Shown piece by piece: positions 1,560 through 7,500 of a DNA stretch of 64,000 bases. Positions within the stretch are counted from its first letter, which is position 1; the number at the start of each line of letters is the position of its first letter. The position numbers and the translations under genes are program-made. Below the pieces are notes generated by a model that saw nothing but the letters and a program-made list of their open reading frames with translations, did not search any database and had not been told where the DNA came from. The DNA is from Metridium senile (taxonomy: Eukaryota > Cnidaria > Anthozoa > Actiniaria > Metridiidae), in NCBI GenBank assembly GCA_949775045.1, contig OX459097.1, positions 4,851,185 through 4,915,184 on the forward strand. Reading direction: 5' to 3'.

Positions 1560-4500
1560 CTGAGAATAAGAAAACAAAAAAATTCATTTGCAGTATTAAA
1601 CTGATACTTTTAGTGTTTTAATAAAGCCTTTCAAAAGAACATATGTCTACCTGTATAGGCAGGCTTATTGCTGGACCATCTCCCATCAAGATATTGAATT
1701 GAAGAAGCACCGACCATTATAAACATTTTATCACAAGAAAAATGGACCGTTTGAAGATGGAAAAAAAAAAACTTCCATTGCTTTGTCGATTTGCAGGAGT
1801 ACCAGGATTTCGGTTTAGTAGAGAAAAACATCTTTATTTTAAAATTGTTTACATTGCAATGTGCATATCGTTGCTGTTTTTGCATTAATTTTTTAGCATT
1901 ACACGACAATAGTTCAAACTCCAAAGAGAAGGTATGTAGGAAAATCTAAAATATTCTAGGGAGGAGTCTTCAATTTTGAGACGACTAACAAACGTTTTTG
2001 TGTGTGGTGTGGTAAAACAAGAAGCACTCAATCTGCGATTGAACAAGTCACGTGCACAGGGAATGGTATTGAACAAAGTATTATAACGAAGTCGTATATT
2101 CCTCACCGACAATACTGCAGAAGAGAGGATGCTCATTCTTCCAAAGAATCCACAGACTTTGATTGTGATTGTGATTGATTTATGCTTTTGACAGTAATAA
2201 TGTAAGCTATTGTGAAAATCTGTAGGTTTTATTGTGATTTATTGCAAAATAAAGGGACACTTGAGTAGTTTTATGCGCACCGAATTATACCCCGTGGACA
2301 TCCCGGTGATCCCGGTGATCCCGATGATAGCGGTGATCCCGGTGATCCCGGTGATCCAGATGATCCCGGTGATCCCGATGATAGCGGTGATCCCGATGAT
2401 AGCGGTGATCCCGATGATAGCGGTGATCCCAGTGATCCCGGTGATACGGTGAGTTTAGGGTGAATTTCATGCATCACGTGACCAACAATTACTTAAAGGA
2501 GACGGAATTTCAATCTGGTCATTGAGAATTATCTCTAGTAGCAGTATGGATTCAAGTTGATGAGGTTGAGATTGCAGAACGTCCATTTCTTTTGGAGTTG
2601 ATATCATCCATCGTGCAGCTGTCAGAGAGCAATCGGAGAGCAAGCAGTCACGTGGTAATATTATTGTTCTCTAATGAATTTAATTTTAATAAACAAAACT
2701 CAAAAGAAGTAGAGACTTTTTCACAGTTTGTTGAATTATTTAATTTATTACTATTCTTCATCATCACGATTATTAGGGTGGTGACTAATACCACCACAAT
2801 CATTACATGACACCAAGATACTTTTTACGGTATCATGATTAAGTGGAAAATGTTGCTTACAAATAGGACAATTGACTACTTGATTTAAACGAGGAGATCT
2901 CAAAGAGGCATCGTGCCAGTGACATCTAGGGCAACCAACGATACTTTTAATATCAATGTTGGAATCTCCACAATGAGCACAAGCATGTTTTTTCTCTTTT
3001 TCGTCATTTTCGTCTTCTTCTTCATGAACGTTTCCATTTCCTCCATCTTGATTTCCCTTATCATCGTCATCGGAATCTTCTTTTCCCTCTTCTTTTTCCG
3101 CTCTTTCTTCGTCATCGGAGGTCATTATTTCGTTTCATATGCTGTTCATTTTCAAATTTTTCCTGTTCTTTTTTCAGCACTTCATTCAAAACCTTTTTAT
3201 TTTTGATCCACTTTTTGTTGATTCCGAGTTCTGCCAACCCATCCACAAATGACTTGAGGCCGCGAGGCTCTGAAATGTCTTTGTCATACGGGAGAAGCAC
3301 ATATTCTATAAGATCCACAATATTGGTTCTAGAAATGCGACGCTGATTTCGCAGAAGCTCATCACCCGGAGTCCAAAACAAAATGTTTCTAGAGGTGGCC
3401 ATACTGTGCAAAAGTTCTGATGCCAGTCGTTGAGAAACTGATCCTGAAAGATCTTGTAAAACCAATTTGATAATAGGCTCCTCATCATCACCATCATTAT
3501 CATCATCATCTTCATTGTCACTCGGTTTATCAGGGTCTTCTTCCCCATAATCTAAATATTCTTCGTCCTTTTCTCGCTTTCTCTTCATTTTGGACAAGTT
3601 ACTCCTACCAATAACTAATGCAAATGACTTTGTAGAAGAAGGAGGTCCTGAATTTATATCAATAGTCCAGCCAGAAAAGGGACTAGCAAATCGGGAATAA
3701 ATGAGCCTCCCTCTTGGACAAGAATTTGTTTCTTTTTCTTGTAAGAAATATTCGGATCTTGAAGACTTTTGATGGATTCTTTGTGGGGGGTCAACATTGT
3801 TAGGTCACGATTACTCAGTGGAGCATATCCTTGGCAAACATTGTGCGCTGCTTGGACTACGGCATGGACCTGTTCTGGTGTTGCAGTGTCAAGTAAGAAT
3901 TGCCGTTGATGATGTGGACAGGAAACTAACAGCTGAAGATAACCATGATTCCTCCTTACCACTCGAGACATAATGACAAAATGATCTGAGTTTAAGTTGA
4001 GAGCTATATATATACTCCTGCACAATACCAACAATAGCCGAGCCCACAGGCTCCGAGCCTAGCCTACAGGTTCCAAGCCGAGCCCACAGGCTCCGAGCCG
4101 AGCCTAGCCGAGCCTAGAACAATAGCCTAGCCTAGCCTAGCCTAGCCTAGAACAATAGCTGAGCCAAGCCTAGCCGAGCCTAGAACAATAGCCGAGCCGA
4201 GCCTAACGGCTCCGAGCCGAGCCCACAGGCTCCGAGCCGAGCCGAGCCGAGCCGAGCCGAGCCGAGCCGAGGGACAAATCATGCGTGTAATAGAGACATA
4301 TAAATACCCTTGGTAGAAGCAATTTTTTTCTCATTCTTTTTCGGACACAAGATGGGTAGGTTGTGTCCTATTTGTGGAAAACTAGTGCAGCATATATGGT
4401 CACATCTAAGTCGTGTTCACAAGATTTATGGTTTGGATCGAACAATGCTGGTGCAACAAGAAAATCAGATGCCTATACATAACTTTCGCAGTCGAAAGGC

Positions 4501-7500
4501 TCTTGACGAGAACCGCTTTAGCTTTCCAGATTTCAAGCAAAAAGGAGGAGGGTGTGAGCCATTTCGTTTGCAACACCCTTTTACCTGTATGGTATCGGGA
4601 ATGACCGGATGTGGAAAAACCAGTTGGGTACAAAATGTATTGGAACATAAAAGCCGAATGATTACCCCACCACCCCAGAGAATAATATGGTGTTATACAA
4701 GATGGCAGCCGGCCTATATGGAAATGATGCAGACTATACCTGGAATTGAATTTGTGAAAGGAATTCCCTCTAATATCGAAAGCGATGATTATTTTGATGT
4801 CAATATGAACAACTTAATAGTCATTGATGATCAAATGAGTTCCGCCAGTAACGACAAACAGGTTATCAACTTGTTTACACAGGGATCCCATCATCGCAAC
4901 CTTAGTGTTTTCTACTTGATTAAAAATCTCTTTCATCAGAGCAAAGGAAACAGGGATATCAGCTTGAATTGTCACTACTTGGTAATATTCAAGAACCCCA
5001 GAGATAAACTTCAAATGTTCACATTGGCCAAGCAAATGTACCCAAGAGAAACCGAATATTTTCTTCAGAAGTATGAAGAGGCGGTGAGCAGACCTTTTGG
5101 ATACCTACTCATCGATTTGAAGACAACCACTCCAGATGATTGTAGACTTAGAACCAATGTTCTCTCTGACAAAAAGCAGCAGTCAGAAAATTCATCCGAA
5201 GATAAAGTATCGAAGGAATTGATCAAATACCTCAAGCAACAAAGTCTTGTTCTTCCTCCTATCGCGTCAAAAGTTCAAAACTTGCACGATCAAATGGTTG
5301 ATATATTGAATAATTCCGACCTCAGTGTCGATCAAAAAGCTCGTGAATATGTCCACCTCCAAAATGATTTTCTTCAATACAAGAAAAAGTTGAATTCCAC
5401 TCCTTCGCCACTTCCTCGACCTTCTTCCAATACAATGCAACCTGTTCCTATGGATACACTAACTGAATCAATGCCGCCCCCATTTCATGAAAATGGTATC
5501 AGCCAATCAGAGGTTTCTACACCACTACCTACTCCTTCAATTTCAAATTATCAACCCTCAACCCCAGTGCAAACTCTGGTTCCTGAAGGGCTATTAACAC
5601 CACCCCCGAGTTCATCACCTGGTGAAAGAAAACGAAAGCGACCTCGATTTGACCAGATCAAAAATATGTTGGATGATGATGCCCATAAAGTTCAAGGACA
5701 CTATTTGAAAGCTTATCGTTCACGGCGATCTATGAGAATAAGGAATCGTTTTAATCCTTTATTAGACTGAACACTGAGTTGAATACTTAACCACCAGTAA
5801 CAAGCAATTATGCCATTATAAATTAGTAGTCAATTGTCCTATTTGTAAGCATCATTTTCCACTTAATCATGATACCGTAAAAAGTATATTGGTGTCATGT
5901 AATGATTGTGGTGGTATTAGTGACTACCCTAATAATCGTGATGATGAAGAATAGTAATAAATAATTCAACAAACTGTGAAAAAGTCTATACTTCTTTTTT
6001 GTTTTGTTTATTAAAATTAAATTCATCAGAGAACAATGATATTACCGCTGATCACCGCTATCATCGGGATCACCGCTATCATCGGGATCACCGCTATCAT
6101 CAGGATCACCGCTATCATCGGGATCACCGCTATCACCGGGATCACCGGGATCACCGGGATCACCGGGAAGTCCACGGGGTATATTTCGGTGCGCATAAAA
6201 CAACTCACTTGCATTATACTTTAACCTGTTTAATATGCTACAGTTATCTTTAGAACCTCTACCTTTGCATACTGGTACATTGTTGCTCCATGTTCCATTG
6301 TTACATGTGACGCGTTTATTTCCTCGGAGAGCGTACCCGAGTTGACAACGGAACCGAACCGTCGAACCATAGTCAAAATTAAGTCCCAGCCTTTCGCCGT
6401 GTTGTGGTGAGTTGATGTTTGGACAAACACCTAGAAAGTGGAAAATATCGTTAATGTAAGTAAATTGCATATCATTATTTCATCCATGAAATATTATCAG
6501 TTACTTTTTATACTATGCATACTAATGGACAGTGCAGTACCTTTTTATCAACATCTCTCTTTTAAGAAACCCCCAAATACTTTGGAAATATGTAATCCTT
6601 TTTTTAAATATATTGCTTGATATCTACTTTTTTTTATGTTTTCATCAAGCAGCCTCTGCATCGATATTCTGGTTAAGAGGTTATATAGAATTAGATACTT
6701 ACCTATACAAGTAGGTGTATTGTCGCTCCATGTTCCATCATTACACTTTAAGACTGGATTACCCTTGATTCTAGAGCCATTGTTACACCGAATAGCGATT
6801 CGATCACCATGTTTGTAGACTACACCAATGATTCTTTGAACGTTCTGCCTATCATTATTCTTGTTTATTACTGCATTTAGAACATTTCCAATACCTCTGC
6901 AGTTTCCTTGACAAAAATAAAATTTTGTAGATATAATATTTCATACGTTTTTGATTGGTAATAACATACCTTGAACGTTCTGTTAATGGGGATAGATACT
7001 ACATTTACCGTACACTTACTTGATGTCGAAGTGTTTGGTTTTGTAATAGACATCTACAGATATTATAGAACAAAAACACTAAAAAATGTATTTTTGGACA
7101 AAGTGTTGCCGCAACGTGTTGCGTTAATTAACTTAAAAAACTCATTAATAATTCATGAGCTATTAGTCCAATCGGGGCATTCCAATTTGGTCACATGCAT
7201 GACCTTTATACCCCATAAAACACTGCCATAGGTACATTATATAAAAACACTTGTGTCTTTATGATAAAGGTACGTGTGTCTTTATGATAAAGGTACGTGT
7301 GTCTTTATGATAAAGGTACGTGTGTCTTTATGATAAAGGTACGTGTGTCTTTATGTACCTATGACACTTGTAAAGGTCTCAGTTTTAATCTCTCATCATT
7401 GACCTTTACTAGAGGCATCACCCGAAACAATGCTATCAATCTCCTACTATATTATACACGACCTTTCTCAAATGTTGGATGACAAATGTGGTGCTTAATG

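Follow-up and report, generated by a model that had tools for sequence, protein, structure and literature searches.

A 3.9-kb Polinton-like element of Metridium senile and its relatives as probable helper-dependent satellites with their own packaging genes

Polintons, or Mavericks, are adenovirus-like DNA viruses or transposons that integrate into genomes, and they carry inverted ends of the AG...CT type as a family mark. Small linear DNA parasites with inverted ends are also found on larger eukaryotic DNA viruses, namely the virophages (such as Mavirus) and the transpovirons, and in this they resemble the elements described here; unlike these elements, however, virophages keep capsid genes, while transpovirons, which depend on giant viruses that infect protists, are without an ATPase–pX–gX block. 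Here we analyse a 64,000-nt stretch of the Metridium senile genome (the window; all positions given without a locus label refer to it), in which a preliminary description had pointed out a compact 3.9-kb Polinton-derived element. Judging from sequence, the element probably belongs to a lineage of Polinton satellites that depend on a helper and hold a packaging set of their own. MCP, penton and pX serve here as presumptive labels.

The target-site duplication of Polintons is given as 6 bp in PMC10045372. The small elements agree with Polinton/Maverick elements and adintoviruses in this duplication, in the AG...CT inverted ends and in an A32/IVa2-like ATPase of the FtsK/A32 kind, and the same genome also contains P (13.7 kb) and Q (17.5 kb), two relatives of larger size. 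In contrast to Polintons of 15–20 kb, they are 3.9–6.2 kb long, have no detected polymerase, integrase, protease or coat genes, and bear a zinc finger and part of gX on their ATPase. PMC10690885 describes SaPI/PICI elements, with a small terminase of their own, and cf-PICIs as small integrated elements with packaging functions, states that small terminases decide which DNA is packaged for some SaPIs, and reports that known phage satellites use their own replicases. The elements studied here likewise are small, integrated and equipped for packaging without genes of the presumed helper. They differ in that the phage satellites are bacterial and their proteins unrelated, and in that a whole motor protein is kept here; furthermore, Polinton satellites would borrow both replication and integration. 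Within the titles and abstract beginnings of the open literature searched, no packaging-module satellite of Polintons is described, although unnamed entries may exist in Repbase, which is outside this scope; the terms non-autonomous Polinton, mini-Polinton and their Maverick equivalents do not occur in the literature searched, while 'Polinton-derived' does.

A packaging module in three families

The element spans 2264–6205 (3,942 bp) and terminates in AGTAGTTTTATGCGCACCGAA on the left and, inverted, AGTTGTTTTATGCGCACCGAA on the right, the latter beginning AGTTG. The AG...CT inverted ends and the CACTTG duplication of the preliminary description were both recovered, the duplication being perfect, and a 9/18-bp tandem repeat forms the bulk of the terminal inverted repeats. 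Among 11 related elements checked, the 6-bp duplication is perfect in nine and has a single mismatch in the other two; in L047, one of the nine, it falls within a TA repeat and is hence uninformative. The 6-bp duplications flanking the ends are not due to chance.

Rather than a single element, as had been assumed, the genome (one genome of 389 Mb in 169 contigs, in which all copy counts are lower bounds) contains a multi-family and partly high-copy group, in which A, which includes the window element, B and C share one module and have unrelated ends. A search with the left end of the window element, in which 16 of 16 candidates were scored and simple repeats skipped, returned 24 matches. Seven other loci with A ends were read: six have both ends, 4,213–6,246 bp apart, and the seventh (L014) is a fragment. 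An element of 15–20 kb was found at none of these seven loci; three more places with only a 48–49-bp inner match lie outside the set. Family A consists of the window element, L009, L012, L013 and L014, with elements of 3.9–4.9 kb, whereas L010, L011 and L015 have A-type ends and other contents.

The window ATPase as query gave 94 matches, the window and L009 among them, with 90 of 749 candidates scored. Family B accounts for at least 19 of these rows (85–86% identity to the window, 19 of 19 without stops), lies on many contigs and has elements of about 6.1 kb. Family C accounts for at least 17 (47–49%, aligned from residue 1), 14 of which are without stops; their frames have about 510 codons in 16 cases and 418 in one, and C elements are 3.7–5.2 kb long. 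The central ATPase only is matched in 26 further rows, with frames of 224–358 codons; the three loci read among them are all Polintons, two of them read as L050 and L051 and one in pieces (L054 and L055). Among the ends scored, full-length relatives were found to share them with the sister family B only. The related families and their many copies rule out a unique internal deletion, and the multi-copy group, the 6-bp duplications and the broken gene in the window copy rule out that the whole element is a domesticated host gene. The earlier proposal of a parasitic or domesticated derivative is thus supported in its first part, a minimal parasitic Polinton derivative with a packaging motor, and not supported in its second.

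The A32-type Walker motifs noted previously (Walker A, GMTGCGKT; Walker B, NLIVIDDQM) are in a frame, 4352–5767, that is open over 472 aa. Pfam assigns Adeno_IVa2 (E 0.00096) and Pox_A32 (E 0.0097) to the window copy, neither of which reaches the cut-off there; Pox_A32 is above the cut-off in the ATPases of B, C, P and the L010 element (D). The relation to Polinton ATPases is evident from the match to the P ATPase (49% identity over 207 aa, E 6e-73). In families A, B and C the ATPase begins with a CxxC...H finger, which the P and Q ATPases lack; in D it lies in frame upstream of the ATPase, but preceded by a stop. The gene gX is split in the small elements, its N-terminal half resembling the C-terminal extension of their ATPase (hhalign E 8e-8) and its C-terminal half resembling their gene 3 (hhalign E 3.6e-6). 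The module corresponds to the ATPase, pX-like and gX block, which is adjacent in a complete Polinton and rearranged here. The zinc-finger and gX fusions of the ATPase are common to A, B and C, and the module proteins are 23–51% identical to those of the local Polintons P and Q.

Four intact frames had been described, three of them for small genes. The ATPase and pX-like frames are open, but the other two are the halves of one frameshifted gene 3, since the corresponding halves form one frame in L009, L046 and L048, so that the element has three genes and only two small ones. In the sister element L009 gene 3 reads as one frame of 277 aa, L046 (B) and L048 (C) each encode it as one protein, and intact copies therefore occur among relatives. 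Family B has two extra genes: a PC4 domain protein (single-strand DNA binding; Pfam E 1e-9), which adjoins the left end (L046 1261–1683), and a 206-aa protein of no known kind.

The absence of polymerase, integrase and capsid genes, also claimed earlier, agrees with our searches. The polymerase, protease, coat-like and penton-like proteins of P, used as queries in their P versions, gave no tblastn match in the window at E 1e-3, and the Q integrase matched neither the window element at E 0.01 nor any of nine small elements, though it matches pieces of P and Q. Beyond the ATPase–pX–gX block, the ends and a short remnant, nothing of P or Q was detectable in A, B and C elements. A PHROGs search with five proteins found no match for the A or B ATPase, and searches of PDB gave none or weak, chance-like matches only.

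Ends shared with complete Polintons

Polinton P (C13:3865814–3879481; 13,668 bp; target-site duplication AGTGTA) has a polymerase-like frame, next a contiguous run of ATPase, pX-like and gX genes, and on the opposite strand protease-like and coat-like frames, further frames and an integrase. Its 1,020-aa frame shows polymerase B motifs by reading, where Pfam and PHROGs show only an endonuclease VII-like part. A TMC-like gene, again by reading, lies beside P. Polinton Q was read as pieces from two copies (L051, and the locus pieces L054 and L055). L051 contains the ATPase–pX–gX block and, facing it, protease and coat-like frames, and L055 an rve integrase (E 2e-9) with a chromodomain (E 2.5e-10); the protease is of adenovirus type (E 1.5e-4), and the double jelly-roll (DJR) coat match is sub-threshold (E 0.0014). 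The polymerase-like frames of Q, assigned by reading, are interrupted by introns or decay. Near them, in the left part of Q, a frame at L054 1711–2112 (C2:11364000–11367500) has C2H2-type zinc fingers by reading.

The small elements could in principle be integrated segments of a multipartite Polinton genome whose complementing segments have no packaging genes, and A-type ends are indeed common to elements with different genes (the packaging module in A; a Fic gene and a divergent ATPase in L010). This is very unlikely, because both P and Q combine an ATPase, a pX-like and a gX gene of their own with coat-like and integrase genes within a single element, from which it also follows that Q does not need B. 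Nor did the end searches find a large-protein segment with A or C ends.

The ends of B tie it to Q. With the 282-bp end of L046 as query, 40 of 103 candidates were scored, all at 98–100%, and among these 40 there were seven pairs and 26 single ends. Three pairs enclose 17,484–17,489 bp and a full-type ATPase, three are of 6.1–6.4 kb (one with a listed mini ATPase), and one encloses 14.8 kb without a listed ATPase row. Next to the single ends, a mini ATPase was found at 3,357–3,453 bp in 17 cases and at 9,223 bp in one, a full-type ATPase in four, and none in four. Conversely, 7 of 7 loci with a Q-type ATPase have at least one B/Q-type end. This pairing of ends with ATPases took in 67 of the 94 ATPase rows, and the remaining 27 were checked separately. 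The 14.8-kb pair lies on contig C128 (9–14856), has no ATPase row among the matches listed and may represent a further variant of the helper or a helper that is damaged. That it begins at base 9 might recall a free viral molecule, yet the contig is 23.1 kb long and free DNA is not demonstrated by it.

Compared with three Q pieces (about 1.9 kb of Q being outside the comparison), L046 matches at the DNA level only in its 282–287-bp ends, at 97.5–97.9%. The ATPases of B and Q, in contrast, are only 50% identical. As in the PICI-like satellites that redirect packaging, the packaging gene thus differs from that of the presumed helper, here also by a zinc finger, which may be the specificity part of the ATPase. 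Since it combines helper ends at 97.5–98% with an old packaging set of its own, B looks like a helper-dependent satellite.

Traces of a similar history are present in family A. Three A elements keep the first 25–33 codons of the terminal gene of Q (67–84% identity, E down to 4e-9), at one end in the window element and at both in L009 and L012, a remnant best read as a sign that their ends came from a Polinton. The same remnant would fit internal deletion derivatives of complete Polintons that arise anew each time. We regard that origin as the least credible of those considered: the module is too far from the P and Q proteins, the same fusions recur in A, B and C, and B matches the compared Q pieces at its ends only. 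Modules and ends have been exchanged: the module DNA of A and B is 88–91% identical while their ends are unrelated, and L015, whose ends are of the A type, has a stretch of 676 bp in common with B at 95% identity.

Selection, spread and a proposed satellite life cycle

To compare synonymous and non-synonymous change, as had been suggested, single pairs were analysed by the Nei–Gojobori method with Fisher p values. Between A and B the ATPase has a non-synonymous divergence (dN) of 0.084 and a synonymous divergence (dS) of 0.246 (dN/dS 0.34; synonymous excess p 7e-9), and for pX the ratio is 0.23 (p 3e-4). Between A and C synonymous sites are saturated. These values bear on the view that the small elements are plain non-autonomous transposons, moved in trans by Polinton polymerase and integrase, with packaging genes that are passengers and play no part in transfer. 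Ordinary non-autonomous DNA transposons also have ends in common with an autonomous element, as B has, and the shared ends and 6-bp duplications fit this view equally well; moreover, some members with A ends have other cargo or, like L011, no ATPase frame. To our knowledge, however, such transposons do not usually retain packaging genes of their own as a long-conserved set. The three-gene module and its Walker motifs persist in three families with unrelated ends despite the saturation between A and C, and dN/dS between A and B is well below 1, which makes the passenger view unlikely.

Over 1,389 bases, 18 of 19 B ATPase copies (L018 counted) differ from L018 at 0–7 positions and one at 41, and 78 of 171 pairs are identical. 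As nearly all copies are near-identical, B has undergone a recent burst. This spread over many contigs looks like that of a mobile element, which speaks against an anti-Polinton decoy by which a host or an element poisons helper packaging with a diverged ATPase set, to the benefit of the host. A diverged ATPase with an added domain would suit a decoy, and phage satellites typically interfere with their helper (PMC10690885). Nevertheless, nothing points to one host gene having been retained, and the window copy is partly decayed; we consider a decoy slightly less probable even than a segmented virus.

A group with packaging genes only, together with a sister family that has Polinton ends, suggests parasites living off Polinton viruses, and we infer that family A behaves as B does. 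In the proposed cycle, the satellite would supply termini in cis, which the integrase and the protein-primed polymerase of a Polinton would recognize; these enzymes and the capsid would be borrowed from a complete Polinton that shares the cell. The satellite's own set, i.e. the zinc-finger ATPase, the pX-like protein and the gX-derived proteins, would most likely load its short genome, and not that of the helper, into helper capsids, and the module could switch helpers by acquiring new ends. That a private motor set is kept, rather than nothing or a polymerase, would be best explained if this set decides whose DNA enters the capsid.

Several observations weigh against the satellite reading. 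It is based on the DNA of one genome, with Q read in part and from two copies. Among 15 pairs of C ends (from 40 scored of 176 candidates), all 15 span 3.7–5.2 kb, 11 with a listed ATPase row, and no helper was found; the search with A ends led to small elements only, apart from the three 48–49-bp matches, and likewise to no helper. The polymerase-like frames of Q match no polymerase family. A scan of IMG/VR with the ATPase and two alignments confirmed no relative. Of the A copies, the window element and L009 have an uninterrupted ATPase frame, but in L012, L013 and L014 this frame is broken; gene 3 is damaged in the window copy, and the A/L009 comparison of the ATPase is not significant (dN/dS 0.465, p 0.059). 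Damage is also seen in B: L035 and L036 have a defective 206-aa gene, and the L032 stretch compared gave no match to pX.

Should helper-dependent satellites nevertheless be what these elements are, a packaging-only parasite with synonymous-biased genes and a sister sharing Polinton ends would argue strongly, if indirectly, for working Polinton packaging in an animal. Satellites that steal packaging, a kind known from phages, would then extend to animals. A broader picture, on which we see the balance as even, is an old radiation of animal-genome satellites that live by capturing viral packaging: their genes would be limited to a private motor set (zinc-finger ATPase, pX and split gX), and they would adopt the ends of any Polinton that happens to be active and compete with it for capsids, as a eukaryotic counterpart of packaging-redirecting phage satellites.

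Layout of the window element and further observations

Features of the window element and its flanking duplications
Feature	Position	Strand	Basis or remark
Left target-site duplication, CACTTG	2258..2263	.	sequence
Left terminal inverted repeat, 5'-AGTAGTTTTATGCGCACC..., with 9/18-bp tandem repeats	2264..2428	+	165 bp, 87% vs right end
Remnant of the start of the Polinton Q terminal gene, 25 codons	2550..2624	+	tblastn 80% over 25 aa, E 4.5e-7
Gene 3, C-terminal half, cysteine-rich (zinc-binding-like)	2751..3125	-	one frame with the other half in L009, L046, L048
Gene 3, N-terminal half	3112..3588	-	homologous to C-terminal half of Polinton gX, hhalign E 3.6e-6
pX-like protein, 105 aa	3654..3971	-	35% vs 108-aa protein of Polinton P, E 3e-17
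Packaging ATPase, 472 aa: zinc finger, A32/IVa2-like ATPase, gX-like C-terminal extension	4352..5770	+	
Inverted subterminal duplicate of the gene 3 end (last ~42 codons and following sequence)	5825..6046	+	
Right terminal inverted repeat	6050..6205	-	156 bp vs left 165 bp
Right target-site duplication, CACTTG	6206..6211	.	sequence

Two of the elements with A-type ends and other contents have features of their own. L010 (C4:3886500–3896499) encodes a Fic-domain protein at 3763–4638 (HPFGDGNGR motif, Pfam E 8e-14), an unexpected enzyme on a Polinton-like satellite, beside a more divergent packaging ATPase (Pox_A32 E 1e-7). L011 (2199–7676; 5,478 bp) is nearly a whole palindrome with arms of 2,737 bp at 97% and has no ATPase frame; parts of it are 92–95% identical to L010, and the palindrome resembles what a snap-back during end-primed replication would produce.

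Between the divergent gene sets of the window element, at 4040–4270, there is a GAGCC/CCTAG-rich tandem repeat that could be a two-way promoter region. Repeats occur at the corresponding place in B (L046, about 3763–4171) and C (L048, about 5608–6136), where position and not motif was compared. Finally, a sushi/CCP-like coding stretch was recognized by reading at 6230–6470 on the minus strand; because it lies about 25 bp from the right end of the element, the insertion appears to adjoin or to sit in a host gene.

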